A DNA stretch of 64,000 nucleotides from Strigamia acuminata (taxonomy: Eukaryota; Arthropoda; Chilopoda; Geophilomorpha; Linotaeniidae): positions 49,050,581 through 49,114,580 of the forward strand of contig OX442314.1 of the NCBI GenBank assembly GCA_949358305.1, read 5' to 3'. The stretch's first letter is position 1. The number at the start of each line of letters is the position of its first letter. The notes under the pieces are model-generated. The model was not told the origin of the DNA, ran no database searches, and was given only the letters and a program-made list of their open reading frames with translations. Positions 13,865 through 59,988 of this stretch are shown here, piece after piece. The position numbers and the translations under genes are program-made.

Positions 13865-15045
13865 GCTTCAAAATGATCACAATATGTACACCTATGGCCA
13901 AAAAAATCTTCACTTGCTCTCATGCTGCTCTAGCTCTAAATAAGCAGTTCATTTTTCTGCCACCGGCGGCTAGAGCAGTCTACTTTTCCTGGGGGCAACA
14001 GCAAGTTTAAATGCAACTAACACTGAGATTTTTAGTGAACTTGAAGCAAATTTAGTTTTATAATTTAATTATTATATATTAAATAGACAGTTATTTCTTC
14101 CATATTTTACTGGTTTATTTCCACAAAAAAAAAATTATTAAGCATAATTTGAAATGTAAAAATCTAAAAAATGTTAAAATGGCGTTTTTTGCCCAAAAAA
14201 TGGCGTTTTCCCTCATAAACTGGCGTTTTTCGCCCAAAAAATGGCGTTTTTCGCCCAAAAAATGGCGTTTTTCGCCCAAAAAATGGCGTTTTTCGCCCCA
14301 AAAAATGGAGTTTTTCGCCCAAAAACGGCGTTTTCGGCCAAAATATGGCGTTTTTCGCATAAAAAATGGCATTTATCGCACAAAAATGATGTTTTTGCCC
14401 AAAAATAATGTTTTTGCCCCCGAAAATGGTGTTTTTGCCCCCGAAAATGGTGTTTTTCTCCCCGAAAATGGTGTTTTTTGCCCAAAATGGTGATTTTTGC
14501 CCAAAAATGGTGTTTTTTGCCCAAAAATGATGTTTTTACCCAAAAATGATGTTTTTTGCCCAAAAATGATGTTTTTGCCCAAAAATGATGTTTTTGCCCA
14601 AAAATGATGTTTTTGCCAAAAATGATGTTTTTGCCCAAAAATGATGTTTTTGCCCCCGAAAATGGTGTTTTATTTCCCTAAAAATGTATTTTTGCACCAA
14701 AAATTGGTGTAAATATTAAATTATTTTTTTATCAAATTTGTTTACATTTCCAGTTTTCTTCTCTAAATTTATTTTTGTAGAAATAAACCAATCAAATATG
14801 GATAAAAGAAAAAACTGTTTATTTAATACATAATAATTGGATTATAAAACCAAATTTGCTTTAAGTTTACTAAATAGCTCACTCTTAGTCGTATTTAAAC
14901 TTTCTGTTGCCCCCAGGAAAAGTAGATTGCTCCAGCCGCCGGTGTCAGAAAAATGAACTGCTCATTTGGAGCTGCAGCAGCGTGGCAGCATGTGAAGATT
15001 TTTTTGTCCATAGGTGTACATCGTTTTGCAGAGTTGAAGATCGTC
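13865..15045. mobile_element. Element with ~200-bp inverted repeats around a minisatellite
   Basis: 13885-14080 is the inverted complement of about 14825-15030. Shared stretches include GTACACCTATGG, AGCAGTTCATTTTTCTG, CACCGGCGGCT and CTACTTTTCCTGGGGGCAAC. Between the arms lies a ~21-bp minisatellite and no coding sequence. Ends are approximate and no target duplication was identified. It interrupts repeat X, whose left part ends near 13840 and resumes near 15240. Confidence 0.85.
14175..14695. repeat. 20-21-bp minisatellite
   Basis: Unit close to TGGCGTTTTTCGCCCAAAAAA, at 14180, 14201, 14221, 14242, 14263 and 14284, grading into TGATGTTTTTGCCCAAAAA variants up to 14695. Open frames on both strands here (WRFSPKK, FWAKNAI repeats) are by-products of the repeat. 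Confidence 0.93.
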
Positions 15046-16303
15046 CAAGTCAGAAAAGGTCAGTATAGCAACCTTTCGAATAGCGAATTTCGACAAAATT
15101 GGTACAGTATAGCGACTTACTATTTAGCAACAACAAGTAATACAGCCAGGAAATTCGGGGTTTTTTTTTAGCGATCTGTCAGTATTTGGGAACAGGAAAT
15201 AAGACTGTTTGAATTTGTTGACCCTGACTTTCCTTGCACACTTTCTCAAGTGCCTTCATCATTAAAATTTGGATTTCGAGTGATGATAAAACTTTCATCG
15301 TCAAATTGTCCATCCAATATTTCGATTGGCTCTTCCTCATGTTGGTTTGAATCTTGCGTTTCAGCTGTGGTTGTTGGATTTTCTAGTGTCTAGAAGTAAA
15401 GGTGGGCGAATGTTGGGTCACTCACCCATAACACTATCGAATATATCATACCATGGGCACTTATTTAATACCTTGGCTAAAAAAAAGAGATGTTTGAGCA
15501 TTTAAAAATACAAAATAAAAATAAAAAGCATGTAGGGAAGCAAATTCTCCAGAATCAAAATCCGGTTCAACACCTGCTTCTGTGCTGTCCAGCCAGTGTT
15601 TCATTTTCATCTGTAATCGTGGACAGTTTGGGAATGCATCAGGTTCTTCATCCAAAAACCGTTTAAAATATCCATTTTGAAATTTGAGTTTTCGGATGCT
15701 TTCTAGTTCTGTAATTTATAATCTGGTGACCAATTTTGTAATTTTTCTGCTGGATAGATGATTCTTTTGTTTGAAATATTTAATCTATCAATCACTGGCT
15801 TTGAAAGAAAAATCCACAGGCTGTATTTGCTCAAAACTTTCCAAGGCCCATTGTCGGAAATGCCAGTTTTTAACAATTTTATATTCGGAGCAGGCTTTAA
15901 CACTTGAAAGGCCAGATCGGAAGGGCGTGGGCGTGGGCGTGGATGAGGGCAGCCAAAAGAGAATGACGTTACTGAATTGGTCCAATTTTTCCATCAGTGC
16001 AGTTTGTGACGATTCCACTTTTGGCTGAAATTATTAGCCATTTAAAGAGATAAAACTATCGGATCCTTACCGCGACCCAGAGCCAGTTAGTCGAGGGTCC
16101 CACTTCCATCTGGCAAGGCCTACTGTGTATGGACATTATACTATGTCACCGTACGAAATCTCCCTATCTTTTAAGATAGCGAGCTAATGCTACGGGACCA
16201 TTTGTTTACCGAAGTTAGTCTTCCCGAAAAGACACTACAACGAACAATAACCATTAGGTCGAGAGTCGAGGGGGCCTGATGTGTCGATAAAGAAAGATCA
16301 ATC
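15046..16303. repeat. Interspersed repeat X, second part, and unassigned DNA
   Basis: 15245-15500 matches 33906-34160 closely (GATGATAAAACTTTCATCGTC, AGTGTCTAGAAGTAAAGG, CCATGGGCACTTATTTAATA). 15560-15660 and 34190-34330 encode on the minus strand similar debris (MKHWLDST.AGVE), hinting at a dead transposase. 16055-16303 is unassigned flank of the Gypsy element. Confidence 0.6.
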
Positions 16304-16307
16304 AAAC

Positions 16308-17385
16308 TGCGGCGATCCGGGTTTTTACTTATTAAATTATATAAATTTAATAAGCAATCGTCGGTGAGATGCCGTACAGGACTTCTACTCTGTGGCCAAA
16401 TGGTTGTCTAGGGGAATGATTTTACACAGAGTAAAGGAAAAATTAGATTGTTTTAATCGTTTTAAATACACCCGAATATAATGCGAAATAATAAGTGTAA
16501 TGACTGGGTCGATCTGGTTTCTCTTCGTACTTGGACACTCACAGTTGACCGTTGGCTCCAAAATGGCGTCGATGGCGTCGTGTGAGCGCGGGATTTTAGC
16601 GGAGTAAACTCGACGCTAAAATACTTTGCTAAAATATACTAAAAATCCTCGCGGAGCAAGCTCAACACGAGAATACGTCTTGCACACAGCGATTTGATTA
16701 TTACGGAGCAAGCTCGACGTAACAATCCGTCTTAACACAATTCGCCTTGTGGAGTTAAACTCGACACAAAGCCTTCAAACTAACAGAGTAAACTCGATGT
16801 TAGTTTCACACACAGAAATGGCTTAAATTACTCGTAGTAATTCAAGCTAGAAAGTTGCTATTCCGTACAGTGGGTACAGACCAGCGATGAAACTCAATTC
16901 GTCCAAGAATCACAGATCACACTTTGCAGTTTTGGCAGAAGTTTGACACGGTTGTGAACAGTTTGGAGGTGGAATCAAGAGTGCGGGAAGAGTGGGCCAA
17001 AACCGTTTGGCTCACTTCTAAATCTGCTCAGAAAAGCTGCGCAGATGACGAGTTGCATGAAGATCACACACGGCCGCCTTCGGGTCGTGTGCAACAATCG
17101 AGCCGGGCACGCGCGAGGGGAAGGGATGCTCCGCCCAGGCACACGCCTAGCAGCATCATCAAAGCAATGCACGCTGCAGCGCGATTGGTTGACGCTGTTG
17201 CTGGGCCAAAACTTGCTGCAAAACACAATATTATTTGGGTAATATTGTGTCTTGTTTTATATTTTATTAATGTATGTTTTATTTCAATTTACATTGAAAC
17301 AAAACATATAAGTTTGTTGAATATGTTTATAAGACAATTTGGAAATATGGTGCGCACTCAAATAGGAATATTTGAGGTCACCACA
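16308..17385 (-). repeat. Gypsy 3' LTR
   Basis: In sense orientation it runs TGTGGTGACC ... GGATCGCCGCA (TG...CA). TATAAAAC on the minus strand at 17254-17261 is a plausible TATA box in U3. A short palindrome (CTTATTAAATT ... AATTTAATAAG) lies at about 16328-16354, near the U5 end. Confidence 0.96.
16593..16847 (-). other. Chain of hairpins in the LTR (copy also at 28984-29238)
   Basis: Six consecutive hairpins. Five share the loop GAGTAAACTCGA or a close variant but have different arms: 16593-16622, 16645-16674, 16697-16726, 16744-16772 and 16777-16806. The sixth, 16821-16847, has 12-bp arms and a 3-nt loop. Arms of units 1 and 5 are perfect (9 bp). The mismatches in units 2, 3, 4 and 6 are C-A or A-C on the plus strand, hence G-U on the element's sense RNA. 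A further perfect 11-bp hairpin, 17223-17250, lies just downstream of the TATA box. Confidence 0.8.
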
Positions 17386-17400
17386 CTTCCCCCCCCTTTT
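17386..17400 (-). other. Polypurine tract of the Gypsy element
   Basis: AAAAGGGGGGGGAAG on the minus strand, directly abutting the 3' LTR. It would prime plus-strand DNA synthesis. Confidence 0.93.
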
Positions 17401-17402
17401 AA

Positions 17403-18036
17403 CACTAGAACGGCCGGAATTTCCGCCTACCTAGAACGGCCAAAACCGGTCAAAATGACCGGTTTTCAATAACGTGAACAATACGTGCACCAAATGTGCA
17501 AAATACTTTCACAATACGTGCACAATACGTGCATACAACGTTTTGACATCAAATGGATTTAGTAACACGCGAAATATGCGAAGAAAATACCAAAACAAAA
17601 ATTGATGGTTATTATAAAACCTGATAAAATTAAATTTCCGTTTTTAATTTTATCAGATTTTATAAAAACCATCAATTTTTGTTTTGGTATTTTCTTCGCA
17701 TGTTTCGCGTGTTACTGAATCAGTTTGATGCCAAAACGTTGTATGCACGTATTGTGCACGTTTGGTGCACGTTTGGTGCACGGTTAGTGCAGTTTGGTGG
17801 ACGTATTGTTCAGGTGATTTCAACCGGTTATTTTGACCGGTTTCGGCCGTTCTAGGTCAATTCACTTTTTTTTTATTATTTCTTAAGATAAATGCAACTT
17901 TCGATGATTTATGATATAAAGCATCATAAATCAGCTAAAGTCACAAATTAGCAGCATCGTTAACCCATTGGGTTTATTGCTGCAGCTGTTTTAAACAGCA
18001 GTTCCGGTCAAAATGACCGGTCTGGCCGTTCTAGTG
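17403..18036. mobile_element. piggyBac-type MITE nested in the Gypsy element
   Basis: Inverted ends CACTAGAACGGCC at 17403 and GGCCGTTCTAGTG ending at 18036, flanked by TTAA at 17399-17402 and 18037-18040, the piggyBac target. The interior is a long imperfect palindrome centred near 17650 (arms contain ACCAAAACAAAAATTGATGG and its complement), then about 165 bp of non-palindromic sequence. No transposase. CCGGTCAAAATGACCGG recurs near both ends. Confidence 0.93.
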
Positions 18037-18128
18037 TTAAGAAAGAATCTTATTCTTTTCCAAAAAGAGACAGGTAAGTATAGGAATAAATACACAAGGT
18101 TTCAAAGTAAAATGGAACAGGATATATA

Positions 18129-18197: not shown

Positions 18198-20417
18198 TTA
18201 TTTCGGCAACATGTCCGTCGAATGATCGTTTGGATCTTTGTGCTCGGTGACGGTGCACAAAGGTCGGCCGGCGTTTGGTCCTGACCGGAAGCCAGGGTTG
18301 ATGTGGAGCCACACTTGCTTGATGCGGTCCACACCATCCCTTCGTCCAAAACCCATCTCGAAGTACTCCTGCGGGTCTTGAGGCGTAATTCGAGCGAACA
18401 CCAGGCGTTGATGCAGGATCCACGGCTGCTGTTCCTTGATGTGGTTTTCCAGCCACGCGAGGACTCGGTTGCATAAATCCTCGCTGTTCTGGAGAATCGT
18501 TTTCGTTGCGCTCGTTATGTAGCAAAAGGCGTATAATGAGCGCAAACGTTGATAGGCGGTGAGGTGGGTGGCCATACTCGATCCCCTATCTCTTGGCGGC
18601 GAATCCTTTGGAGGAGGCGGCGGTGGCGGCGACTTCTTGCAGATCGAGAGGGATCTGGATCTGCGTAAAGCCGGGGTGCGCGTCTTTGGTCTGGCACCGC
18701 AGGTCACAGGCACGACGAACTCGCGATCGTCGCTGTCGAGCCATTCCATCGGAGACGAGATGTTGCAACTCGGTGCCTCGGTCGCACGGGAAACACTCGA
18801 CGTTGCCGTGATGGCAGCGTGGAGTGGAGCTGCGGATGACGGTGGTGCGCCAGCGGGACGGGCGGTGGCTCGTTCTGCTGTGCGTCGCTGCTTCAGCGCA
18901 GCCCATTCCTGCCGTAGTCGAATGGCGGATCCAACCGGAGTTTCGCCAGTCGCCTCGGCTTGTTGCGTCAATTCGGCGAGCATCGTTGGAGGATCGGGGC
19001 GAACTGACTCCCAATCGTCCAGCAAGGCTCGTGGAAGCCCTAGTGGCACGGTCCACAATCGAGTGGCGGCGGCCAGAGCAATCTGTGGGTCGGGAAAGAC
19101 TCCTTGGAACAGGATTCGAAGAAGTCCCTCCGACAACTTCCTGTTCATCTTCTGCAGCGTCCGTTGCAGTTGCTTGTCGGACTTGCACGACGTAAGCTCT
19201 CGCGCAAGCCATTGCCATTCCTTCTCACCTTCGCGGATCTGAGCGAGTTGGTATTCGTCCAGATGCGCGAGGTACATCGTTTGGGCTGTCTCGGGAAACG
19301 ATGAGAATCGCCTCCAGAGATCAGCGCACTCCTGTGCGGGAAATGGTTCGTGAGAGACGTATCCCTCAAAACGGATGACCGATGTCACTTGTGGCACGGG
19401 CACCGATGGATCTGGTCGCATGTCGCTGGTGACTGGACGGCAAGCGAACGGCAAAGAGGTGTTAACGTCTCCCTGACCGGCTTGCAATGCGGCGATGCGT
19501 TGATCTTCCTTCGCTATCTCGTCCGACCAGTCAATCCGGCCGGAGGAGGAAGCGGTAAGCTGTGAAGCGTTGGATCGTTCTTCACGCGACGAGAGTGAAC
19601 TCCTCGTGGAAGATTGACGCGATTGCACTCGAGGTCGGCTTCGGGATGTGGGTCTCGATACGGACTTCGAATGTCTTTTCGGCGGCGTCGGCTCGCGTCG
19701 GTGATGTGAGCGATGACGAGCCTTCTGGAGTGGAGGTAACCCTCCAATGGCGCCTTCCCCCGACGACTGTGTTGGGGAGGAGCGACGGCCACTGTAGGGC
19801 GACCTCGATGATCGTGACCTCGACGTGGAGCGCGGTGGCACCACGTGGATGGTGGAAGCGACCTGTACCCGGGGCTCAGGCTCTGGATACGGGTTCGGCA
19901 CGAAATCTGCATGGAAACATCCGCCCATGGCTAGTTGATGCATCTCCGACTGGCATGTCGGCACCCAACGTTTCTTTCCGTCCGTTGTTACACGGAAAGA
20001 TTCGTTGTAGAGGCGTACAACCTCGGCCTTGGTTTGATCCAAGCGTTGGAAAATGTCCTCCAAAATCTGTCGACGCTCCCACGCAGGAGCGTTGAAGTAA
20101 CGGCGATGGTCTCGCGTTTCTTGTGCGATCACTGTGAAGGCGAAGTCGAGCAACACGTTTCGCAGTGGTCCGAAGGTGTCGCGCTTCATTGCCCACTCGA
20201 GGGCGTCGCGATGACCGAATCCATCGATTAAATAGGCGATCCGAAACTTCGTTCCCCATCGCTTGTTTAAGGCCTTGGAGAATTTGTGTCGGGCCGCCCA
20301 AAACGTCAGTCGTCCTTTCGACTTTATGATTTCTGGCGGCAATGCGTGTCGCCAGACACCAGGAGCGGTCGGAACATCGGGGTGTAGTTCGAGATGCGTC
20401 TCCCGAAGCTGGATAAT
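18198..20417 (-). CDS. Extra ORF of the Gypsy element, main exon
   Basis: Main exon (739 codons) of an additional ORF between pol and the 3' LTR. There is no ATG at the start of the frame. Instead a strong acceptor (ATATTTTTACAG) precedes it at 20418-20420, and joining it to the exon at 20772-21035 keeps one frame of 827 codons. Parts: a helical N-terminal region (WAARHKFSKALNKRWGTKF, then ALEWAMKRDTFG); an Arg/Ser-rich linker (RSTSRSRSSRSPYSGRRSS and onward, about 120 residues); a second helical region around LWRRFSSFPETAQTMYLAHL; a proline run of seven; a C-terminal globular segment with PWILHQRLVFARI. No signal peptide, membrane segment or known domain, so it is not an envelope. Composition is markedly more G/C-rich than gag-pol. 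Function unknown; the basic Arg/Ser region suggests nucleic-acid or protein binding. Confidence 0.75.
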   Translation of the reverse strand: MIQLRETHLELHPDVPTAPGVWRHALPPEIIKSKGRLTFWAARHKFSKALNKRWGTKFRIAYLIDGFGHRDALEWAMKRDTFGPLRNVLLDFAFTVIAQETRDHRRYFNAPAWERRQILEDIFQRLDQTKAEVVRLYNESFRVTTDGKKRWVPTCQSEMHQLAMGGCFHADFVPNPYPEPEPRVQVASTIHVVPPRSTSRSRSSRSPYSGRRSSPTQSSGEGAIGGLPPLQKARHRSHHRREPTPPKRHSKSVSRPTSRSRPRVQSRQSSTRSSLSSREERSNASQLTASSSGRIDWSDEIAKEDQRIAALQAGQGDVNTSLPFACRPVTSDMRPDPSVPVPQVTSVIRFEGYVSHEPFPAQECADLWRRFSSFPETAQTMYLAHLDEYQLAQIREGEKEWQWLARELTSCKSDKQLQRTLQKMNRKLSEGLLRILFQGVFPDPQIALAAATRLWTVPLGLPRALLDDWESVRPDPPTMLAELTQQAEATGETPVGSAIRLRQEWAALKQRRTAERATARPAGAPPSSAAPLHAAITATSSVSRATEAPSCNISSPMEWLDSDDREFVVPVTCGARPKTRTPALRRSRSLSICKKSPPPPPPPKDSPPRDRGSSMATHLTAYQRLRSLYAFCYITSATKTILQNSEDLCNRVLAWLENHIKEQQPWILHQRLVFARITPQDPQEYFEMGFGRRDGVDRIKQVWLHINPGFRSGPNAGRPLCTVTEHKDPNDHSTDMLPK

Positions 20418-21245: not shown

Positions 21246-24200
21246 TTACGTTTGGGTAACGTCGCTGTTAGTGACGTCATCCAATCTTACTGTTTGAATG
21301 GTTTGAGTATGGCTTGAGGAATTGCTCCTTACGTCATACGGCTGATCCCTGGATCTCGAGGTTAGCGAGGGGAGAAGACACATGTTGTTTTTTCCTCTCG
21401 GTTTACGAGTCCGAAGATTATATCTCTTTGTCGGCGAGGGATTTATTGTATTTAAATCGCCGTCTTCATTGTCATCGGAGACTGAGTCAGATGAGTCTTT
21501 TATTTCAGATGTTTTTTGTTTCTTTTCTAAAAACACCTTTTTATTTAATTTTTTAGCAATTTCAAGCTTTTTGAAACTGTCACGAAGTTCAACGTCGTTA
21601 TTCACGAGGTCTGACTCCATTTGTGGTTTGGATGAATTATCGACAGGTATTTTCTTTAATTCATCGTCATCTAACGTATTAATTATATTTTCAGTCTTTT
21701 GACCGACTTCTTCGCCTTCTAACCATACTTCCTGGTCGAAACTCGGGAAATACGGAGTTAATTCAGACGAATGGACAGCTGGAAATATTTCGTTATTCTC
21801 TAGCTTTCTCAATTCTACCGAACCTCCCTGTAATACTTTGGTTATTACATAAGGTCCTGTTCTTTTATCAGCGATGCCAGCTGCAATGCCGCGGGCAGCG
21901 CTCGACAAAACATGAGAATCTCTCCAAACTAAATCGTTTAATTTAAAATTGGAGAACTTCTCACCTTCTTTTTTAAGATTAACTCGTCTGCGCAAATCTA
22001 ACACGTGTGACATCATGTGCTGATATGTTTCGGCGATAACGGCTTCTAATTTTTGCACGTATAAATGTGGGTTTTTTGGATCTACGACCAAAATTCCTTC
22101 AGGTATTCTTGGATCCCAAGGTACTCTGAGTTCGCGAAAAAAGTTAAGAAATGCGGGAGAGAAGTCTCTTCCTCTCGTCACCGTAGTTCTCAAGCTAAAT
22201 GCAAATTCACGCAAATATTCGTCCCATTTGAAATGAATAGATGAATAAATTGCAACCAAATATTTGATGTCACGGTTAACCCTTTCAACCGGGTTAGCTT
22301 GTGGGTGATACGTTGAAGTTGGTGTTGGAACCATCTTGAACTTTTCACAAAATTTTTTGAAGACTTGGGCACGAAATTGCGGGCCGTTGTCAGAAATAAT
22401 TTTACGAGGGAATCCCATGCTCATGGAAAGGTGATAAATGCAATTTGCTACTTTTCCAGCAGTGGGGTTACACATTGGATATAATTCTGGCCAATGAGTT
22501 GCCACATCAAGTATGACTAAAATATGTGTGTTGTTTTTGCGCGTCCGAGGTTTTGGGCCGGTCAAATCAACACTTAGACAGTCAAATGGGCTGTAAGGAC
22601 CCATTTGCGCTGCTTCAATTTGTCCTTTCGTTCGAGGTTTGCAAGCTTGACAACGCTCACAATGTCGAATGAATCTCGTAATGTCCGATTTCATGCCTTT
22701 CCAGGTATAAATTCGGCGTGCTCGATAAAGAGTCCTTGCAATTCCTGGGTGGCCAGAAAGTGGGTGGCCATGCATCAGCCAAATAATTTTATACTTCAAT
22801 GTCTGAGGTACAAAAACTTTGAGTGCTCTCCCATCCTCCCCCAATTCATCAGACATTGTGGGATGAAATTGCATTAATAAGTCATCTTCAATTAAGAAGG
22901 TGGTTGCGTGTTTTCTATATTGTTTCCTCTGGAGTCGCGTTGTGACGTCAGGCGGAAATTGATTACAATTTAAAAAATTACGCATCAATTGGCAAACTTT
23001 ATCTTCTTTTTGGGCCTTGATTATGTCTTCCCTTGTGGGAGGTTCACAATCAAGACGTTCTACAATTTTGGCGACAAATGCTTTTATTAAAACATTTGAC
23101 GAAGGAACTTGGAATTTCCTTGAAATTTGCGCTCTTATGACGTCATCTGATTCCTCAGAGGAGTCATAAATTTTAGTCCAATAGTTGACGAATTCATGAT
23201 CTTCCTTTTCCTCTAATGTGGAGACAGGAAGCTCATGGAATTTTCCCATTTTCCATTTTCGTTGTGGTGATGGACAGTAAGATAATAATTCGTCATTATC
23301 TCCATCATCTTCAGGATTTTCTGGTTTATCAATCGGTGATCTGGATAAAGCATCCGCTAAAACATTTAGTGGACCTTTAATATATTGTATTTCGAAAGAG
23401 TAGCGCATTAGCTCCATTTGCCAACGCGCTAACCTTCCAGCAGGTTCGTCCAACTGCATCAACCATTTTAATGCTTGATGGTCAGTCCTTACTATGAATG
23501 TTGTAAATTCCAAATAATGTCGAAATTTACGTAATGCCCAGATTACCGCTAGGCACTCCAATTCTGTGGCGCTGTAATTTATCTCAGCAGGTTGCAAACT
23601 TCTGCTGGCATAAACACAAGGCACTTCGATATTTTGATCGTCGATTTCTCTCATTTGCATAAGCGCGGCGCCTAGTCCTTTTCTGCTGGCGTCGGTATGC
23701 ACAATAAATGGTTCTGTCAAATCAGGCATGGCCATTGTTTCTGCATTCGTTAAAGCATCTTTTATTTGATCAAAAGCTTCTTGATGAATTTCTGACCAAA
23801 TAAATTCCACATCCTTTTTGAGTAAAGGACGTAGAGGTTCTGTCATTACTGCCAGATTTTTAAGTAATCGGTGAAAAAAGTTCACCATTCCCAAAAACCT
23901 TTGCAACTCTTTCAAATTTGAAGGAGCTGGCATTTCTTTAATGGCGGCGACTTTTTTAGGGTCGACACTAACTCCTTGAACACTTAACTTGTAACCAAGA
24001 AAAGTTAATTCTTTTCTGCCAAATTTCGATTTTTCTGGATGAACATGAAGATTTGCATTTTCAAGTTTACTCAGAATTTCTTCCAGATGAATCATGTGTT
24101 CTTCAAAATTTTTAGATATAATGATTATATCATCGAGGTATGCCCATGCAAATTTTCGATAGGCGTCCCCCAAAATTTTTTCTATTAACTTCTGGAAAGT

Positions 24201-25694
24201 TGACGGCGCATTTACGAGACCAAAGGGCATGACTCGAAATTGTAGTCGACCCAAAGGGCTCCAAAATGCAGTTTTAGCACGGTCGTTCGGATGAACCTCT
24301 ATCTGCCAATAGCCTTTTGACAAATCTATTGTTGTGACCCATTCAAACCTTCCGAGTTCTCGCAAGATTTCCTCAATGCTGGGCATTTGAGGAGGGTCGT
24401 ATAATGTATGTGCATTGAGTGGTCTAAAATCAATGCAGAGTCTTGGATCACAATCCGGACGCATCACTAGAACTATTCGCATCCCATAGTCTCCAGTGGC
24501 TTGTTCAACGTACCCATTATCCAACATATCTTGACAGATTTGACGGATAATTTCACGTTTCTGTGGATTTACGCTTTTAAACGGAACTCTAATCGGAACT
24601 TTAGTGTCCAGTTTAATTTCATGCCTAACGAGGTGTGTTCTACCTGGTCGGCGTGATAAAATCTTTTCATGTTTCTTTAATACTTTTTCAAGCATTAAAT
24701 TATTTTCCATTGACAAATTAGCATCGCTAACAAGTCTTTGTACTATATTTTCTTCATCGGCAACTTTAGCTTGACATGCAGTGGCGGAACCAGCTTTCAT
24801 GTGATTTGCTTTAATAAAGTCGCGTTTCATGATTTCTTCGGGTGGATCAAGAAACTCTTGATAACGATCAAGAATCGCTTGAGGAACAAAAGGTAAATCT
24901 TCTTTCAAAGACTTGACAAAATTCCAAGACATGGTCTTAGGATTTGGTTGAATATTGAGTCGATTCATGAAATCACATCCTAATAAAATAATAGGATATT
25001 TATTTCTTAAAATTATGAATGGATGACTTAACATCCCGTGTGTCCATGCAAAAGAAAGTAGGAGAGTCCCTTCAGGGACTACATCTTCTGAAGCAGTCGT
25101 AACTCTCACATCCGGTCCTATTGGTCGAATTTCATCTTCCAGTTTCAGCGAAATTACTACGGAGTAGGCCATGAAGCTTCGATTAGCTCCAGAGTCTAAC
25201 ATCCCTGTTATCATACCGTTTGCCGTCTGCAATCGAATCGTCGGCAAATCATTGCTGTTTGGTATGTCCGCGTACTTGCATTTAAAACGTCGCGGTGGCT
25301 TAATTTCTATTGGCGGATCCAATGGTAATTCGTCCAATAAATCATTAGTGACTAGCGTTGTAGCCATTAATTTTTCAATGCATTCATCAAGACCAGGTAA
25401 ATCAATTTTACCTGACCTTTCAACAATTTCAGGTGTGGGCCTAGCTTTTCCATCTAGTAAAGTAACAGCATCTTTTATTTTAGATTCCCAATCAACTTTT
25501 ATTTGTTGAACTTTTTCTTTAAAAAATTCTTCAGTGATGTTTTCATTTTGCAGCACAAGCCTTAAACTGGAAACATCAATTTTTGGAAATACTAAATTAT
25601 TTTCTAATTCTAATTTAATCTGGGTATTTAAAAATTCATCTAAAATCTGAGATGGTGTTAGTTCATTTTCCGAGGCGGTAGGCGTCGCATCCAC
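21246..25694 (-). CDS. pol: Gypsy Pol (protease, RT, RNase H, integrase)
   Basis: Polyprotein region of 1482 residues, reached by frameshift from gag (the frame has no ATG at its start and is open upstream to the gag overlap). Aspartic protease: LDSGA at residues 166-170. Reverse transcriptase: RLCIDFRPLN (about 418-427) and catalytic YLDD at 519-522. RNase H: TDAS at 667-670 and TDHQALKWL. Integrase: zinc-binding HHCC about 975-1017, then catalytic D1043, D1102 and E1137 (DLTGP, SDNGPQF, NPVERVNR), spacing D-35-E. A 330-residue C-terminal tail follows, ending in a basic YNLRTRKPR motif; no chromodomain. All catalytic residues are intact and there are no internal stops, so this copy may be active in pol. 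Confidence 0.96.
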   Translation of the reverse strand: MDATPTASENELTPSQILDEFLNTQIKLELENNLVFPKIDVSSLRLVLQNENITEEFFKEKVQQIKVDWESKIKDAVTLLDGKARPTPEIVERSGKIDLPGLDECIEKLMATTLVTNDLLDELPLDPPIEIKPPRRFKCKYADIPNSNDLPTIRLQTANGMITGMLDSGANRSFMAYSVVISLKLEDEIRPIGPDVRVTTASEDVVPEGTLLLSFAWTHGMLSHPFIILRNKYPIILLGCDFMNRLNIQPNPKTMSWNFVKSLKEDLPFVPQAILDRYQEFLDPPEEIMKRDFIKANHMKAGSATACQAKVADEENIVQRLVSDANLSMENNLMLEKVLKKHEKILSRRPGRTHLVRHEIKLDTKVPIRVPFKSVNPQKREIIRQICQDMLDNGYVEQATGDYGMRIVLVMRPDCDPRLCIDFRPLNAHTLYDPPQMPSIEEILRELGRFEWVTTIDLSKGYWQIEVHPNDRAKTAFWSPLGRLQFRVMPFGLVNAPSTFQKLIEKILGDAYRKFAWAYLDDIIIISKNFEEHMIHLEEILSKLENANLHVHPEKSKFGRKELTFLGYKLSVQGVSVDPKKVAAIKEMPAPSNLKELQRFLGMVNFFHRLLKNLAVMTEPLRPLLKKDVEFIWSEIHQEAFDQIKDALTNAETMAMPDLTEPFIVHTDASRKGLGAALMQMREIDDQNIEVPCVYASRSLQPAEINYSATELECLAVIWALRKFRHYLEFTTFIVRTDHQALKWLMQLDEPAGRLARWQMELMRYSFEIQYIKGPLNVLADALSRSPIDKPENPEDDGDNDELLSYCPSPQRKWKMGKFHELPVSTLEEKEDHEFVNYWTKIYDSSEESDDVIRAQISRKFQVPSSNVLIKAFVAKIVERLDCEPPTREDIIKAQKEDKVCQLMRNFLNCNQFPPDVTTRLQRKQYRKHATTFLIEDDLLMQFHPTMSDELGEDGRALKVFVPQTLKYKIIWLMHGHPLSGHPGIARTLYRARRIYTWKGMKSDITRFIRHCERCQACKPRTKGQIEAAQMGPYSPFDCLSVDLTGPKPRTRKNNTHILVILDVATHWPELYPMCNPTAGKVANCIYHLSMSMGFPRKIISDNGPQFRAQVFKKFCEKFKMVPTPTSTYHPQANPVERVNRDIKYLVAIYSSIHFKWDEYLREFAFSLRTTVTRGRDFSPAFLNFFRELRVPWDPRIPEGILVVDPKNPHLYVQKLEAVIAETYQHMMSHVLDLRRRVNLKKEGEKFSNFKLNDLVWRDSHVLSSAARGIAAGIADKRTGPYVITKVLQGGSVELRKLENNEIFPAVHSSELTPYFPSFDQEVWLEGEEVGQKTENIINTLDDDELKKIPVDNSSKPQMESDLVNNDVELRDSFKKLEIAKKLNKKVFLEKKQKTSEIKDSSDSVSDDNEDGDLNTINPSPTKRYNLRTRKPRGKNNMCLLPSLTSRSRDQPYDVRSNSSSHTQTIQTVRLDDVTNSDVTQT

Positions 25695-25727
25695 TAGACC
25701 GTCTGGATGCGCGCTTACAAGTTTTTT
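25686..25727 (-). promoter_or_regulatory. -1 ribosomal frameshift site between gag and pol
   Basis: On the minus strand the gag codons CTA AAA AAC TTG TAA contain the canonical slippery heptamer A_AAA_AAC (25727-25721). After a 9-nt spacer, a perfect 7-bp hairpin follows: CGCATCC ... GGATGCG, 12-nt loop, 25711-25686. The pol frame is exactly -1 to gag and open through the site. The gag stop is 25717-25715. Confidence 0.9.
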
Positions 25728-27007
25728 AGAAGCTCGCCGATTGATTTCATCGATTTTTCGAACTCCTCAATGATCTTGTCTTTGCTCGATTTCCTATCAG
25801 GACATTCTTTAGCCCAATGTCCCAATTTTTTACAAATATTACACGGGTCAGTAGCAGGCGATTTCGCGACTTTTGGCGAAGGCGAACTTGAACGTTTGGC
25901 TTCGTCCTTTTTAGGGGTCGGCGACTTCGATCTACTGAGCGCGTCTGTCTTTGGTGAACCAAAAGTAACGTTTTTAGGCGCCATCTTTGGTCCAAATTTT
26001 CGAGCTACTGCGTTATTACGGGCTAATAAAGCAGCTGCAGCCTCGCTTTCTGGTTCCGAGTCAGATTTCTCTGGTTCAGAAGCAGTTTCCATTTCAGTCA
26101 CTTCGGCTAAGTGAGCTTTAGGGGTTGGATGTGGATTTTTCCCATCCGATCCCTTTTTAGATTCCTTAGCAGTCTCTGCCAAAAAATCTCCTCGTTTTGG
26201 GGGTTGCAAAAGAGGGGTGTTAGCAAAACGTGTGTCTTTTGCTAATTCCTTTCTCCGTTGCTGTCGCTTAGCGTACGCAACTTTTTCATCAGCTGGTAGA
26301 TAAGCTTTATAATTTTCGTCAATCCTTATTTGATTGGCTCGCATAAATTTGGCTAATTCAGCGAAACCACCCGGATAAGGTGCTCGTACTGAAAGTAGAA
26401 CATTTTTTGAATAATCTGTCAATCCACGTCGGAATTGACGATCAATGGCTGCATCTCCCATTGTATAAGGGAGAGTGACCAATAAATCCTCAGTCCTTCT
26501 TAAATAAGAGCGAAGACTTTCGCCTTTATTTTGAGAAAGATTATCCCACATTTGTAGTAAGTCTTCACTTGACTCCCCATATTCAGTCATGAATTCCTCT
26601 ACAAAGTGATTCCAGTTTTGAAATTGTTTAGAATAAAACCATTTCTCAGCTCGATCTATAAGAGCTTTTGGTACTACTCTTTTCAAAGCAGTGTGACATG
26701 CAATGCCATTCAACCTTGAAATTCGTAACACTTCATCTAAAAGAGTGGATCCAGCTTCCCATTCTCCATCGAATAAAGCGGGTTTGATGTGATCCCATCT
26801 AATAGTTCTTTCATCAACTAGATCGTGAGTCCAGTTGTTGGCAGTATATTGTGCAATTTTTTGTCGTAATGCAATATCAGCATTATCGGCAGTAGCGTCA
26901 GATCGATCGGAAGATCGACGATCAGCTAATAATCGATCAATTTCTTCAGCAGTGTAATAATGTGTATTACGCCGAGAAGAATGGCCTCGATGTCGACGTC
27001 GATGAGA
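25715..27007 (-). CDS. gag: Gypsy Gag, capsid-nucleocapsid part
   Basis: Structural protein forming the particle. The frame is open for 430 codons directly after an in-frame TGA at 27008-27010 and is in the same frame as ORF1, so the two are halves of one ~963-residue Gag. No ATG is near the start of this part; first residues are Arg/His-rich (SHRRRHRGHSSRR). The retrotransposon-gag capsid region spans about residues 60-230 (KWFYSKQFQNWNHFVEEF ... MGDAAIDRQFRRGL). A Ser/Lys/Pro-rich linker follows, then one zinc knuckle CNICKKLGHWAKECPD (CX2CX4HX4C) that would bind RNA. The slippery site sits at the stop codon. Confidence 0.9.
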   Translation of the reverse strand, partial: SHRRRHRGHSSRRNTHYYTAEEIDRLLADRRSSDRSDATADNADIALRQKIAQYTANNWTHDLVDERTIRWDHIKPALFDGEWEAGSTLLDEVLRISRLNGIACHTALKRVVPKALIDRAEKWFYSKQFQNWNHFVEEFMTEYGESSEDLLQMWDNLSQNKGESLRSYLRRTEDLLVTLPYTMGDAAIDRQFRRGLTDYSKNVLLSVRAPYPGGFAELAKFMRANQIRIDENYKAYLPADEKVAYAKRQQRRKELAKDTRFANTPLLQPPKRGDFLAETAKESKKGSDGKNPHPTPKAHLAEVTEMETASEPEKSDSEPESEAAAALLARNNAVARKFGPKMAPKNVTFGSPKTDALSRSKSPTPKKDEAKRSSSPSPKVAKSPATDPCNICKKLGHWAKECPDRKSSKDKIIEEFEKSMKSIGELLKNL

Positions 27008-28606
27008 TCAATGTCGATTATCGCGTTCTTGTTGCGCATTCACATCAGAATCCGACCTTGAATCAGATTGTGAATTTGAAGGCGTGTTAAAATGTGGTGT
27101 TTCAGGTGGGTCGGGTGGGTCGCCGTCATCGTCGGGCGGTCGACGTCCACCTCCAGGTGGTCCATCTCCATGTCCATCTGGATTTCCTCCATCTGGTGGA
27201 TTTCTTCTATACTGACCCCCACCTGGCGGGCTTTCATGTCCGTCCGGCGGTTCGCGTGTTGGATTGGTGTCTCGTCGACTTCTTTTTGACGAGTCTTGCT
27301 GTTGAGTCAGTGGTATCGTTCGAGTAACATGAATACCAGTTTCATGCCGTCTATTTCGATCGTCTACTATCCCCAACAGTCGGTCACTGTTGTGAAAAAT
27401 AGGGTTTCGATTACCAGGGAGCGGATTGCGATCAGCTCTCCGTTCCTCAGAATCTGAAGGACGTTTTCTTTTTGAGCGATGGCGACGACGCGAACGTTGG
27501 TCGTCATCACTCGATAATCCAGATTGGCTACTTAACTCTGAAACAACAGAAATTGTTATTGTTTCGGGAGTCAAAATAGGGACAGTTGGCGCAGCCATTT
27601 CTGGTTGCACCAATTGGTCAGTATAATTTCTTGCTTGCAAACGGTCTTTCATTTCTGCAAGCTCTTCTTGAGCGCGTAACAAATCAGCTCGGAGGATTTC
27701 ATTCTCGTTTATTTGATTTTGCGATTCTGGTTGTAATCGCTTAGCAGGGCCGCTAGACTTGACTTGTCCGCTCGTACTGGGTTGATCCAGCGAGTGGAAA
27801 ATCTCGTCTTCACGCTTAGCTATTTTGCTTTCGCGAGTACGCTGTGTTTTAGCACGTGTGTCTAATTCAGCAGCATATCTCACTAGTTGATTATGATTGC
27901 GTTGGTAGTGGTCTGCCAAATCAATCAATTCTTTATTTTTCTGCTCCAGCTTACTTTTGGTAAGCTCGAGCTGTCTTCGCGCCTCTTGGTGTGAGCGAAT
28001 TGAAAGTTCATTTCTAGTATTCATTTTAGAAAGATCTTCCACTTCACCTTTTAATCGGTATTCTCTAGCTTTTTGGGCTAGAAATTCCTCATTTTGTCGA
28101 TTGAGTTCCATGTGTTGAAGCTCAACCTCCGCTTTTTGTTGTTGAAGCTCAGCTTCTTTTCGTTCCATTTCAAATTGTAAATTTGAAACGGCTCGGTCAG
28201 TGTGAAGTCGTATCATGGCGCGATGAATCTCTTCCACCGTCATGTCGTCCGTTATTTGGGCGCCATCTTGGCGTGCTTGATTTCTCAAAGCATCCAACAT
28301 GGTCATGCGAGGAGGTGATTCGTGAGACGATTCACTTTCCATTTCACGTAACGTATTTTCCACTTCCTCCAGTGGAAGTGGCGGGAGTTCTTGGTCGTTA
28401 GAACTCGCACTTGAAGCGCTTAATGCTCTAGCAACTTCATTTTCAGCATCCTTAAGTTGTTTCGGATCTGGAACTGGTGTTATTTCTTCAGAAATAATTT
28501 TCTCCATAAGCATTTCAGGCTCGAGAGCCGGCAAAACCGTCGCTGCTCGTTTCTGAGTGCTTGGTCGACCTCGTTGTCGTTTTACAATTTGCATTGGCGT
28601 CGCCAT
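27008..28606 (-). CDS. Gypsy ORF1 / N-terminal part of Gag (coiled coil)
   Basis: ATG at 28606, 72 bp after the primer-binding site; 532 codons to a TGA. An AT-hook-like basic motif (KRQRGRPS) lies at residues 9-16. A long heptad-rich coiled coil spans about 150-270 (QFEMERKEAELQQQKAEVEL and onward). A Ser/Arg-rich stretch (RRRHRSKRKRP) and a Gly/Pro/Asp-rich tail follow. The terminal codons before the TGA and those after it are in one frame and similarly Arg/His-rich, so the stop probably interrupts a single Gag. The coiled coil would support multimerisation (inference). Confidence 0.85.
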   Translation of the reverse strand: MATPMQIVKRQRGRPSTQKRAATVLPALEPEMLMEKIISEEITPVPDPKQLKDAENEVARALSASSASSNDQELPPLPLEEVENTLREMESESSHESPPRMTMLDALRNQARQDGAQITDDMTVEEIHRAMIRLHTDRAVSNLQFEMERKEAELQQQKAEVELQHMELNRQNEEFLAQKAREYRLKGEVEDLSKMNTRNELSIRSHQEARRQLELTKSKLEQKNKELIDLADHYQRNHNQLVRYAAELDTRAKTQRTRESKIAKREDEIFHSLDQPSTSGQVKSSGPAKRLQPESQNQINENEILRADLLRAQEELAEMKDRLQARNYTDQLVQPEMAAPTVPILTPETITISVVSELSSQSGLSSDDDQRSRRRHRSKRKRPSDSEERRADRNPLPGNRNPIFHNSDRLLGIVDDRNRRHETGIHVTRTIPLTQQQDSSKRSRRDTNPTREPPDGHESPPGGGQYRRNPPDGGNPDGHGDGPPGGGRRPPDDDGDPPDPPETPHFNTPSNSQSDSRSDSDVNAQQERDNRH

Positions 28607-28678
28607 TTTGTCAAATTGAAAAAGAACAATGGAAATAAAGGATTTTTTCGCAAAAATCGGATTTTAATAATCAAAACA

Positions 28679-28696
28679 ATCCCGGACGGGCCCCCA
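28679..28696 (-). other. Primer-binding site, tRNA-Pro-like
   Basis: TGGGGGCCCGTCCGGGAT on the minus strand, two bases inside the 5' LTR. It differs at one position from the tRNA-Pro primer site known from gammaretroviruses and should pair with the 3' end of tRNA-Pro. Confidence 0.88.
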
Positions 28697-28698
28697 AG

Positions 28699-29776
28699 TG
28701 CGGCGATCCGGGTTTTTACTTATTAAATTATATAAATTTAATAAGCAATCGTCGGTGAGATGCCGTACAGGACTTCTACTCTGTGGCCAAATGGTTGTCT
28801 AGGGGAATGATTTTACACAGAGTAAAGGAAAAATTAGATTGTTTTAATCGTTTTAAATACACCCGAATATAATGCGAAATAATAAGTGTAATGACTGGGT
28901 CGATCTGGTTTCTCTTCGTACTTGGACACTCACAGTTGACCGTTGGCTCCAAAATGGCGTCGATGGCGTCGTGTGAGCGCGGGATTTTAGCGGAGTAAAC
29001 TCGACGCTAAAATACTTTGCTAAAATATACTAAAAATCCTCGCGGAGCAAGCTCAACACGAGAATACGTCTTGCACACAGCGATTTGATTATTACGGAGC
29101 AAGCTCGACGTAACAATCCGTCTTAACACAATTCGCCTTGTGGAGTTAAACTCGACACAAAGCCTTCAAACTAACAGAGTAAACTCGATGTTAGTTTCAC
29201 ACACAGAAATGGCTTAAATTACTCGTAGTAATTCAAGCTAGAAAGTTGCTATTCCGTACAGTGGGTACAGACCAGCGATGAAACTCAATTCGTCCAAGAA
29301 TCACAGATCACACTTTGCAGTTTTGGCAGAAGTTTGACACGGTTGTGAACAGTTTGGAGGTGGAATCAAGAGTGCGGGAAGAGTGGGCCAAAACCGTTTG
29401 GCTCACTTCTAAATCTGCTCAGAAAAGCTGCGCAGATGACGAGTTGCATGAAGATCACACACGGCCGCCTTCGGGTCGTGTGCAACAATCGAGCCGGGCA
29501 CGCGCGAGGGGAAGGGATGCTCCGCCCAGGCACACGCCTAGCAGCATCATCAAAGCAATGCACGCTGCAGCGCGATTGGTTGACGCTGTTGCTGGGCCAA
29601 AACTTGCTGCAAAACACAATATTATTTGGGTAATATTGTGTCTTGTTTTATATTTTATTAATGTATGTTTTATTTCAATTTACATTGAAACAAAACATAT
29701 AAGTTTGTTGAATATGTTTATAAGACAATTTGGAAATATGGTGCGCACTCAAATAGGAATATTTGAGGTCACCACA
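28699..29776 (-). repeat. Gypsy 5' LTR
   Basis: Same length and, where compared, same sequence as 16308-17385. Promoter LTR of the element: TATAAAAC at about 29645-29652, hairpin at 29614-29641, hairpin chain at 28984-29238. Confidence 0.96.
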
Positions 29777-47254: not shown

Positions 47255-48279
47255 TACAACATTGATGCAAGTTAGAAATTACACACACTCATAACTCCAC
47301 TTAACGATAAATAAATCAAATACAAGATCTTTTTACACGGTTTGATTTAACACAAATTAAAAAATAAATTCAATTCTGATTTTAAACGATTTATTTTTGT
47401 ATAACATTGTTTTTTATTCAGAAAATTAAAAAGTAGACAGCAACTGAACTCAGAAATCGGGTTTATGCTGTTTGTATATTTGCTTTTGGTGGAGAGAAAT
47501 TGAAGAAATTTGGATGGCCTTTCTGGGTTGATGGCCCTTCTGGGTCGATGGCCCTCCTGGGCCACGGCTTTTCAGAAATTTTAAATATTTTTAATTTTTG
47601 AAATTCTTCATTTATTTGGCCCTCCTGGGCCACGTGTAATTTTTTCAACTTTTGCGAAAATTGCGATGGCCCTTCTGGACCACCATACATGAGACCCAAT
47701 GGCCGCTGTGACTCGCGGTCTGATCAGACATGGCCGCCATGCAGCCATCGCATTGGGAAATGCACTGGGAGTGGGAGACCCCGCATCATACCCCTAGACA
47801 ACAATAAACTTTACACCAAAACTAAACCTTTGTCTCTTGTGTATTTCGTGTGTGTTGCATCGAGCGCCTCATGGCCCTCCCCTGACCACATGGCGTCCAT
47901 CCAAACACTCACAATTTTGACTGCATTGGCTAAGTATTGTTAAAATACTAGTGCCGTTCCGTCATCGTCACAAGGTAATTTTTAATGTAACGGCCAACGC
48001 AAACCAGAGTTAATGATTCTACTCGTGTCATTCGGTGTTTCCCCTTGAATTTTGTAACTTTATTGAACGTTTTTGTTGACATATGGGGTCAACAAATCCG
48101 GCTCTCTACCTCCTTGCGGTTGCCCCTGGCCCACTGGTCATTGCAACCAGTGGTATGGAATGATAGCTCTGGTTGGTTCTGGTTTGCAATATTGCGCAGA
48201 ATAAAGAACTGGTACTGTAAGACTTCATTACATGAGTGCTGCATTTACAAAATGAGAATAGTGTATTGATACTGTAAGA
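47255..48279. repeat. Non-coding; short GGCCCTCCTGGG-type repeats and interspersed repeat
   Basis: 47510-47690 has repeated GATGGCCCTTCTGGG-like units. 47785-47812 repeats the CATACCCCTAGACAACA motif seen at 44219. 48090-48279 resembles 11530-11720. Confidence 0.5.
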
Positions 48280-48508
48280 CTGCATTAAAACCTGAGACAC
48301 TTGATGATGATTATAAAAACAGTTATTTGGTGACAAAATAATGCACAAATATTTATATAACAAAAAAAATTATCTATAATTTGTTCTTGTTAATCCAGAT
48401 GAACATTTACCTATAAAGCAATTTAAAAAGCAAAATAAAACCTTACTTCATGAATAAATGCCTAGGCTCTGTAAAAATTCGGGAAAAAATACATTTAAAA
48501 AAATCCAT

Positions 48509-49797
48509 TTATTTATTTATATACGCCTACATTTTCTTTTCTTTTGGCTATACGAATAAATCAAGGAAGACCCTTCTGGCAGTAGCAAACCAAACAATAC
48601 ATTATACAACCAAAACGAAATTAAATAAAGAAAAAATAAATAATTCGGCGTAGCTGCAGCTATCAGCAAATCACTTGCGAACCTGTAGAAGAAACTTGTA
48701 TACAAAACCAATTAATAAAATAAAATAAAAAAAATAAGAAATAAGAATTACTAACAATAATATGAATACAGTACAATTATTATGACTAGCAGTATGCATC
48801 TAGAATATCAAACTTCCCTCAAAATATATCATCACTGAGAATATTTTTATTTTTCTTTTTTAAAATGAGTTCCAAGCAAAGTCAAAGTATGAGAAAGTCC
48901 AGGACCTGCTTGGCTGCCATTTTTGCTAGCGCGCATACTGGACGGTTGGTAACACTAATCTTATTCTAAACTTTGAATATGTATGTGGTTTCTGAGCAAA
49001 ATTTTTTTCATCAAATTTAATGGCACCAATTAGTGTTTCAGGTCAACCTTTTTTTTTTAGAACTGTCTTTTCCTGTCTTTGAGAGATTGGTTAGTCATTT
49101 AGTTAATAATAGGCAGATCAAAACCTTTCTTTTTGTTTATTTTTAAATATTTGTTGGTGTTTGCTTAGTAGTGATCCAATATCTTATGAATGGATAAAAA
49201 AGTCAGATTTTTAAATTTTTTGAATTTCTTCGAATTTAGTAGTGTTTCGACAAGTTTTTGACAAATTTAAAAAATGTTGAATTTTTTGGTAAATTCCAAT
49301 ATATTTTTATGAATACTGTATGTCGTTTGAAAAATGTTGATAAAATGAAAGAATTTAATTTCAAATAGAGATCATAAATGGTATCAAAATTATGGTTGTT
49401 CAGGAGTGCGATATATCGCACAGCGATTTTTTATTTCCAAAAACTGCAACACGATTAACCGCAAACCGCAAAAAACCGCAGAAAACTGCAAAACTGAACA
49501 AACCGAAAATCTGCAAATTTCATTTCATTTTATTTAAAAAAAAAATTTCTTTTTTTCTTTTTTCATTTTGGATTTTTTAGGGTTTATTTTCTTAAATTTT
49601 GAGTTTTTGCACGTGCATTGCAGCTTTATATGGAAACCGCACCGCACTTGCCAAAAAAAATAACCGCACAACCCTAATCAAAATCTCTTAGCTGGAGCTT
49701 CTGTCCCCACCACTAACATACCAGTTATTCACTATTGGAACATTTACTAAAAAAAATGTTATATTTATATATTATATATATTTATATATATATATTA

Positions 49798-49828
<31 letters not shown>

Positions 49829-50116
49829 ATTTTATACACACGGTTTAAAAAAAACTTGGTTGACCTCCCACACCCCTACCATACGTATTTTCAGTTAGAA
49901 TAAATCTGCAATCATTATAAAAGTTAATATAATTTCACTGGATGCAAAAAACCATCAAAAAAAATAATATTTTTTTCAATACAAATATCATTGCATAGTT
50001 AATACAATTAGAAATAGTCTTCGCCGGTATAAACTTCTCTGTAATAAAAAAAATTGCTTTACAAAATAAAAGTTAGCGTCCCGTTCCAATTTAAAAAAAA
50101 AAAAAAAAACTCAAGA
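48509..50116. other. Non-coding DNA with dispersed repeat and microsatellite
   Basis: Copy of the dispersed repeat of 40926 at 48996-49235. (AT)n microsatellite at 49757-49830. A17 run ending near 50109. Short frames only. Confidence 0.6.
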
Positions 50117-50743
50117 TCATTTCCCGAACCCAACTCTATTATTACCTCCGCTTTTGTCTTTAAATGCGTGTGAGTCATGTTCGTCGAAAAACACTCGAGT
50201 GATCACGATATCTCCCGTAGACAAAGTCTGACAACTTGCATCCGACATTAGCTTCTTGGACTCCTCGCTCAAGGAGCCCATAGAAGACACCGATACATTT
50301 TCACTGGTGCCGTCGGTGCCTTTGCCGCCGGGAGAGATGCCGGCGTCCCGATGGCAGTTGCAGCGACAACACATCCCCAAGTTGGTCACCCCGAGTAGCG
50401 TTTCGATGCACCCGTTCGCAAAGTATTCGTCTACGTATTGCCAGTTGCCGAAGTTGGCGGGCGACATCACTTGGCTCGAGCGGTGAAAGGGCGAATCCGG
50501 AGACGCTTTGCCGCCGCTTTCTTCGATCGAGTCCACGTCGTCCTCCTCTTCCTCGTATTCGTCGTTCAACTCTTCATTGTCGGCACCGTTTTCCGGAGAT
50601 GTCTCAGAGTCTCCTCCCGATCGAACACTGCCGCCTTCTTCCGAGTTTTTGCTGCCTTGTAAGCGCTCTAATTTTAATTCGCGCCACTTTATACGAGCCT
50701 TCCAACTTTTCCCGCTCCTCATCCGAGAGTTAGTTCCAAGTAT
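50117..50743 (-). CDS. Terminal exon of an unrecognised gene (copy 1)
   Basis: Acceptor GCATATTTAG precedes 50743 and the frame reads ILGTNSR then MRSGKSWKARIKWRELKLERL, a basic helix. An acidic segment (EYEEEEDDVDSIEE), a Cys-containing segment (GCIETLLGVTNLGMCCRCNCH) and a Ser-rich tail with SDASCQTLSTGDIVITRVFF follow; stop at 50117. G/C-rich coding-like composition in A/T-rich surroundings and a frame that is open across the splice acceptor suggest a real last exon. Upstream exons would lie at higher coordinates but were not found before the MITE and satellite. Family not recognised. No AATAAA on the minus strand in the first 70 bp after the stop. Confidence 0.6.
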   Translation of the reverse strand: MLGTNSRMRSGKSWKARIKWRELKLERLQGSKNSEEGGSVRSGGDSETSPENGADNEELNDEYEEEEDDVDSIEESGGKASPDSPFHRSSQVMSPANFGNWQYVDEYFANGCIETLLGVTNLGMCCRCNCHRDAGISPGGKGTDGTSENVSVSSMGSLSEESKKLMSDASCQTLSTGDIVITRVFFDEHDSHAFKDKSGGNNRVGFGK

Positions 50744-50927
50744 CTAAATATGCAAACATCAAGTTTACTTGGGCTATTGGCTGATATCACGAACCAAGGA
50801 TAACATTTTGCCACGGATGGCAAAACATAATACATAGCCGCACTGTATTCTGGGATGACAACAGGTAACAAACATGTCAAAATTTGTCACCAAAATTTGG
50901 CAAAATTTGCGAAAAATCTGTCAAATA

Positions 50928-51037: not shown

Positions 51038-51039
51038 TA

Positions 51040-51586: not shown

Positions 51587-51595
51587 TTCTCCTCC
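51587..51595 (-). other. Copia polypurine tract
   Basis: GGAGGAGAA on the minus strand immediately before the 3' LTR. Confidence 0.75.

Positions 51596-59957: not shown

Positions 59958-59988
<31 letters not shown>

Follow-up and report, generated by a model that had tools for sequence, protein, structure and literature searches.

Which molecule reads a chain of short hairpins that share a loop and differ in their arms, and what does the reading achieve? The question is raised by a retrotransposon long terminal repeat (LTR) in Strigamia acuminata, where an initial annotation of the window (the whole stretch of DNA analysed, 64,000 nt) described five shared-loop hairpins and a sixth with a 12-bp stem, and proposed that they act as RNA.

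The host element

The host is a Ty3/gypsy LTR retrotransposon on the minus strand. Self-BLAST identified two identical 1,078-bp LTRs (TG...CA), the 3' LTR at 16308 to 17385 and the 5' LTR at 28699 to 29776 (its sense strand begins at 29776), with a 4-bp target duplication, GTTT; RVT_1, RNase H, H2C2 and rve domains follow in Ty3/gypsy order by Pfam. A putative primer-binding site (TTGGGGGCCCGTCCGGGAT, 28679 to 28697, minus strand), which we take to be of the tRNA-Pro type, adjoins the LTR end. All ORFs of the element lie on the minus strand. The first (532 aa, 27008 to 28606), taken as the N-terminal part of gag, has a basic N-terminus (KRQRGRPSTQKR) and gave no hit in a Pfam search. The second (338 aa, 25715 to 26731) carries Retrotrans_gag and zf-CCHC, the capsid domain and CCHC zinc knuckle by which gag was recognised. 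The window copy thus has gag split between two ORFs (25715 to 28606), where a second element family described below has a single one. The pol ORF (reverse transcriptase, RNase H and integrase by Pfam) spans 21246 to 25694, and a third ORF (ORF3; 714 aa, 18198 to 20342), with an arginine/serine-rich region, is conserved in the second family.

The element is young and common: when the 237.5-Mb genome was searched with a 401-bp LTR piece, 24 of the best 40 of 265 candidate matches scored as highly as an identical piece would. The window copy also contains a TTAA-flanked insert with inverted ends (CACTAGAACGGCC; 17399 to 18040, just upstream of the polypurine tract), presumably piggyBac-MITE-like, because of which its LTR spacing is 12,391 bp rather than the approximately 11,753 bp of other copies. 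Elsewhere in the window, two 5.6-kb segments (48278 to 53840 and 58406 to 64000) are 99.2% identical with about 10.1 kb between them, and a tandem array of approximately 20- to 21-bp units (GCCCAAAAAATGGCGTTTTTC; 14155 to 14721) is flanked by inverted-repeat arms (14000 to 14099 and 14806 to 14905).

Architecture of the hairpin array

The six hairpins were found with the coordinates, arms and loops first described, and the array recurred in the second LTR. The five shared-loop units lie on the minus strand, which is the sense strand of the element, between 16593 and 16806, and have the common apex U-Y-GAG(YUUR)CUC on differing arms of 8 to 10 bp. Each is built as arm, UC or UU bulge, GAG, loop (YUUR or UUUAA), CUC and arm. 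Fold, LTR sequence and a covariance model together delimited unit A' (16777 to 16806; AAACTAACA/TGTTAGTTT, loop TTTA), unit B' (16743 to 16773; GCTTTGTG/CACAAGGC, loop TTTAA), unit C (16697 to 16726; the core of GATTGTTACG/CGTAATAATC, loop CTTG), unit D (16645 to 16674; ATTCTCGTG/CGCGAGGAT, loop CTTG) and unit E (16593 to 16622; ATTTTAGCG/CGCTAAAAT, loop TTTA), the bulges of which start at LTR positions 589 to 773 on the sense strand. The sixth hairpin (16821 to 16847, minus strand; 12-bp stem, different loop), recognised from the fold and from other copies' sequences, largely retains its stem in those copies, where its loop is variable and the shared apex is absent. In the 5' LTR, the covariance model placed the five units at 28984 to 29013, 29036 to 29065, 29088 to 29117, 29134 to 29164 and 29168 to 29197 (minus strand), and this is the copy expected in the element RNA leader.

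Folding of the minus strand (16593 to 16850) gave a minimum free energy of -78.1 kcal/mol, compared with -59.95 ± 4.41 kcal/mol for shuffled sequences, none of 200 of which was as low. The plus strand also fell below its own shuffles, to a lesser extent (-62.5 versus -45.86; z = -3.58, compared with -4.12 for the minus strand), because the DNA is palindromic. At E ≤ 10, the covariance model matched ten sites in the window, five per LTR; it had been trained on 14 units of three groups of repeats, four of which came from the window itself. Across 20 fetched loci, which were picked for containing the apex, 55 hairpins with at least 7 arm pairs were found (one of them, at L049, has another apex and looks like a chance match), versus none in the reversed sequence. 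Genome-wide, the apex pattern had 1,156 matches, compared with 494 in a reversed control. A search of Rfam with both strands of 16200 to 17500 returned no match above gathering score and, at E ≤ 1, none to TAR, for which Rfam holds a family; the sole hit at E ≤ 1, RUF1, reached 18.4 bits where the gathering score is 70, and was rejected as a family identity.

The arms had been called unrelated. Their sequences do differ, and yet their origins are not all separate: units C and D share flanks (family D5), and in two seven-unit copies (L047 and L048) the pairs [A B] and [A' B'] resemble duplicates. Five-unit arrays contain different unit combinations among copies. From these seven-unit arrays and varied combinations, units seem to turn over, being gained and lost through duplication and loss.

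Covariation and strand polarity

The window's own family (family 1) was aligned in 28 rows, comprising 20 copies chosen by LTR similarity (18 from the best 40 of one set of matches, 2 from the best 40 of another), the window copy itself and seven further loci retrieved with the apex pattern; the seven-unit copies and locus L020 stand outside this alignment. Of 1,796 cells, 98.6% were paired, falling to 38.5 to 47.6% when the partner was slid by 1 to 3 columns. Two-sided changes occurred in 48 cells, compared with 13.5 ± 3.2 in shuffles, and the covariation score was 0.141 versus 0.099 ± 0.003 (0 of 500 shuffles in either case). Neither the number of pairs with a two-sided change (eight, reached by 42 of 500 shuffles) nor that of further pair types (30, with 493 of 500 shuffles having as many) exceeded the shuffles. 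Of the eight two-sided pairs, six belong to units A and B, where copies may have kept either A or A' and either B or B', and thus are not clean point events; unit E contributes the remaining two (columns 226-245 and 229-242), to which this ambiguity does not apply. Unguided RNAalifold on the same rows recovered every one of the five arm stems but missed the apex stem of unit D.

Strand polarity was pronounced in the arms. On the sense strand, arm cells comprised 1,125 Watson-Crick pairs, 97 G-U, 4 A-C, 14 other combinations and 20 gaps, and counting each state once per column pair still left 19 G-U against 4 A-C (two-sided binomial, approximately 0.003). The 97 G-U pairs would be mismatches on the other strand, and therefore selection sees the sense RNA. 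Apex stems lacked this polarity (545 Watson-Crick, 3 G-U, 7 A-C, 1 other, 4 gaps): the apex, when changed, breaks, whereas the arms keep wobble. The 26 non-pairing cells were spread over 15 of the 28 rows. Over all pairs, G-U states arose by A>G in 10 cases, by C>T in 9 and by either way in 3; adenosine editing was rejected as the wobble source because C>T states were about as frequent as A>G.

The arm changes across the family were thus mostly compensated or wobble, and the proposal of selection on sense-strand RNA, which uncompensated changes would contradict, is borne out. Given compensatory changes together with strand-specific arm wobble, that is, a conserved RNA structure, we regard it as nearly certain that selection acts on the sense-strand RNA structure of the array. 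The accompanying claim that all mismatches are wobbles held in the window copy, where the imperfect arm pairs are G-U on the sense strand, and failed in other copies, in view of the apex stems above and of C.A mismatches in the two further groups described below.

Conservation was greatest at the apex. All 139 family 1 instances (28 copies; one further instance was a gap) had U as the first bulge base, GAG kept its A in 139 of 139, and the A-U pair was intact in 138 of 139 cells. The most variable class was the second bulge base, a pyrimidine throughout (diversity 0.318); values for the 28 copies were otherwise 0.020 in the apex core, 0.103 in loops, 0.106 in arms and 0.197 in linkers.

A second family and a third group of repeats

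The second family (family 2), consisting of L075 and its relatives, has a 1,396-bp LTR that likewise begins TGTGGTGACC. Its LTRs had no blastn match to those of the window at E 1e-4 (L042 and L045 among the subjects). The capsid-nucleocapsid part of gag is 34% identical between families (E = 7e-58), and the N-terminal halves of the two Gags had no significant BLASTP similarity. Family 2 has three sense-strand hairpins. One has the apex of the window family (GTGAGAGCGCCA-TC-GAGTTTACTC-TGGTACTCTCAT); the two outer ones, whose arms (ACAGTGAAC and TTCGTAAGC) are unrelated, have in common another apex of 22 nt that lacks the UC bulge, and fold with a single C bulge. On arm TTCGTAAGC, TATTCGTAAGC/GCTTACGAATA is replaced by TATCTGTAAAC/GTTTACAGATA, with three compensated pairs and a fourth in L085.

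Among 22 family 2 copies, 99.3% of 1,016 cells were paired (32.8 to 46.4% when slid) and the covariation score was 0.125 versus 0.064 ± 0.005. Two-sided change occurred in 9 pairs (0 of 500 shuffles had as many), 5 of which derive from three rows (L087, L089 and L090) in which the whole unit differs; further pair types were not above shuffles (500 of 500). The first apex pair of the third unit was broken in 3 of the 22 copies.

A third group of repeats (L050 and L063, with weaker units in L060 and L061) carries the apex on arms like TGAGTCCCG/CGGAACTCA. Read on the apex-bearing strand, three of its units contain a C.A arm mismatch, as does the second family. Folded alone, units of this group were modestly better than shuffles (12, 6 and 11 of 200 as good), except the second L050 unit, which was not (168 of 200 as good). 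When 14 units from the three groups were taken together, pairing held in 96.7% of 182 cells, a value biased upward because units were picked for pairing arms, and the covariation score was 0.769 versus 0.230 ± 0.035; the loop-closing pair alternates between C-G and U-A.

Other features of these repeats were recorded. The family 2 LTR (L075:690-700) and the third group (L050:2011-2021) both contain GGGTAACGCCC, around which another hairpin, differing in its flanks, may form. L075:73-8944 has gag and the third ORF, and its three largest sense ORFs contained no Pfam reverse transcriptase or integrase. Three LTR pairs are spaced 7.35 to 7.48 kb apart and one other 12.9 kb; judging by coding content and spacing, the family may be non-autonomous.

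Probable position of the array in the element RNA

The array lies upstream of the first ORF with no intervening ATG. The 837 nt from LTR position 331 to 1167, ending shortly before the first ORF (28610 to 29446 on the minus strand), contain no ATG, compared with a mean of 11.3 and none of 2,000 dinucleotide shuffles as low; placing the start of this stretch behind the last ATG biases the test towards this outcome. The opposite strand contains 12. Sense-strand ATGs occur in the LTR at 79, 92, 227, 230 and 328, and the first ORF begins at 1171; the upstream 330 nt are somewhat ATG-poor (5 versus 10.3; 35 of 2,000 shuffles as low). Family 2 repeats the pattern, with no ATG in 955 nt versus 8.0 expected (0 of 2,000) and 4 versus 9.8 in its upstream stretch (25 of 2,000). 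Only one of 12 distinct full LTRs, the most diverged (83%), had an ATG after position 450.

Because no ATG occurs in the 837 nt before the first ORF, the array probably sits in the mRNA 5' leader, and the ATG distribution suggests that transcription starts after about 230 to 450, upstream of the hairpins. The leader position first proposed is in this way supported indirectly. A TATAAA at position 55 with AATAAA at 103 and 118 would instead give a long U5.

Proposed function and candidate readers

We propose, with about even confidence, that the array is multivalent, binds Gag and selects the element RNA for packaging. It would then be a cis-acting RNA that a young Ty3/gypsy-type element carries in its LTR, and probably in its 5' leader, with each unit one copy of the same predicted protein-binding hairpin. 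The protein would read the apex, namely the conserved bulge U, the free second pyrimidine, G-C/A-U/G-C and a two-base loop closed by C-G or U-A; the arm would drift by compensatory change because it would be a double-stranded stalk only. The likeliest reader would be a protein of the element, Gag being the first choice, several molecules of which could nucleate on one RNA and lead to its selection for packaging. Gag and packaging are favoured because repeated sites with a shared apex are a form of packaging signal described in the part of PMC6281560 consulted, and the shared apex motif on variable stems is present here. The same sequence signature would be seen under a role in translation or export.

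Where the unit occurs bears on its reader. In the first 30 of the 1,156 genomic apex matches, the arms comprised at least 9 pairs at 22 loci and at most 3 at the other 8. Of the 22 long-arm loci, 20 carried family 1 units and 2 carried family 2 units, L036 being assigned from its unit only, so that no locus of this sample outside the two families has the unit. This fits an element protein as reader, in a small sample that does not amount to proof. Gag has a basic RGRP stretch at its N-terminus in both families, which we take to be AT-hook-like. At E ≤ 5, Pfam detected no AT-hook in the window gag ORF; its one sub-threshold hit to that motif lies elsewhere, in the gag of family 2. ORF3 protein is a second candidate reader on the strength of its sequence: it is 39% identical over 231 aa to L075:5747-7417 (E = 4e-35) and arginine-rich in the window copy. 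It matched no Pfam family, and among 6,885 candidates in the protein collection none was a homologue of its domain at E ≤ 0.001.

An arginine-rich element protein (the Gag N-terminus or ORF3) might instead read the units as arginine-sandwich sites and control elongation, export or translation, as in TAR or the Rev response, rather than packaging, which we consider possible and yet unlikely. According to the part of PMC6189040 consulted, bulge base U23 of TAR joins A27-U38, which is the second pair counted from the bulge upward, in a base triple, and arginines of Tat contact G26 and G28; 7SK follows the same rule through U40U41, with U40 joining A43-U66 at a two-base bulge. The unit of the window family appears to fit this rule, having a bulge pyrimidine and A-U as second pair, and the bulge U and A-U pair (almost without exception in place), beside a free second bulge base, match the U-A-U triple of TAR and 7SK by sequence (PMC6189040). 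Both families encode the N-terminal RGRP stretch and the conserved ORF3. Against this stand the two-base bulge, rather than a three-base one, and two-base loop, the Rfam and AT-hook results given above, and family 2, whose two outer units, as folded with a single C bulge, miss the arginine-sandwich rule and where three of 22 copies have lost the first apex pair. The broader claim, that LTR retrotransposons outside retroviruses possess TAR-like trans-activation or Rev-like export, with a tandem leader array and an arginine-rich element reader kept across families whose gag is 34% identical, we hold to be improbable.

Control of translation, in which the array slows or diverts scanning ribosomes (by repression, shunting or an IRES) or binds a host translation repressor, seems to us rather improbable too. 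The array lies within a long ATG-free stretch, and because this stretch is kept free of ATG, scanning through the array is to be expected; the leaders of Drosophila melanogaster gypsy and Idefix reportedly contain IRESs. However, stability alone would not retain one apex sequence under drifting arms, and an ATG-free leader makes an IRES seem less necessary. That a host factor binds the array, in defence or to export the element RNA, is more doubtful still. The unit is short and repeated, as we infer sites of host RNA-binding proteins can be, and a host protein could be the reader, but the 22 long-arm loci among the first 30 matches were all family 1 or 2 units. Finally, a DNA-level feature (DNA-protein sites, a cruciform, or palindromes perfected by template-switch correction without RNA selection) is hardly credible: RNA hairpins are DNA palindromes, both sides of which a single round of template-switch correction can alter, but such correction would erase wobble pairs and not keep them, the apex is asymmetric with a 2-nt bulge on one side, and the arm wobble polarity, on one strand, led us to reject a DNA palindrome or insulator.

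Comparison with known systems

Titles and abstract beginnings listed from one open-access paper library yielded no such array, which is weak evidence of absence. To our knowledge, how animal Ty3/gypsy elements mark their RNA for packaging is largely open. The gypsy Su(Hw) insulator array also consists of tandem protein sites near the gypsy 5' end; those are DNA sites without paired arms, whereas the array described here has paired arms and a strand polarity that points to RNA. The leader and packaging elements of Ty1 and Ty3 are likewise LTR-element RNAs that act in cis from the 5' end, as the array probably would; unlike it, Ty1 uses a long-range pseudoknot, no repeated apex is described in the part of the source consulted, and the RNA structure of Ty3 is called uncharacterized there (PMC4974528).

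The dispersed packaging signals of MS2 and HBV resemble the array in having several stem-loops per RNA with a shared coat-protein motif in variable surroundings, and MS2 recognition involves a loop motif and an A in a 5' bulge, as far as PMC6281560 was consulted. Here, in contrast, the sites are clustered in about 215 nt of LTR, the apex is nearly invariant, and the apex would be the candidate Gag contact. With the arginine sandwich of TAR and 7SK the units share the bulge U, the pyrimidine bulge and A-U as the second pair, within the part of PMC6189040 consulted. The array differs from TAR in its five to seven copies, in a two-base loop instead of the TAR hexaloop and in having no Rfam match. 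G-C/A-U/G-C above the bulge is a further likeness to TAR and 7SK, and we know of no Tat for this element. If the arginine-sandwich reading were true, TAR-type recognition would extend to retrotransposons and provide a probe for the protein partner. With its near-invariant apex, exchangeable arms and variation in copy number, the approximately 30-nt unit constitutes a small, testable RNA-protein recognition element beside these systems.
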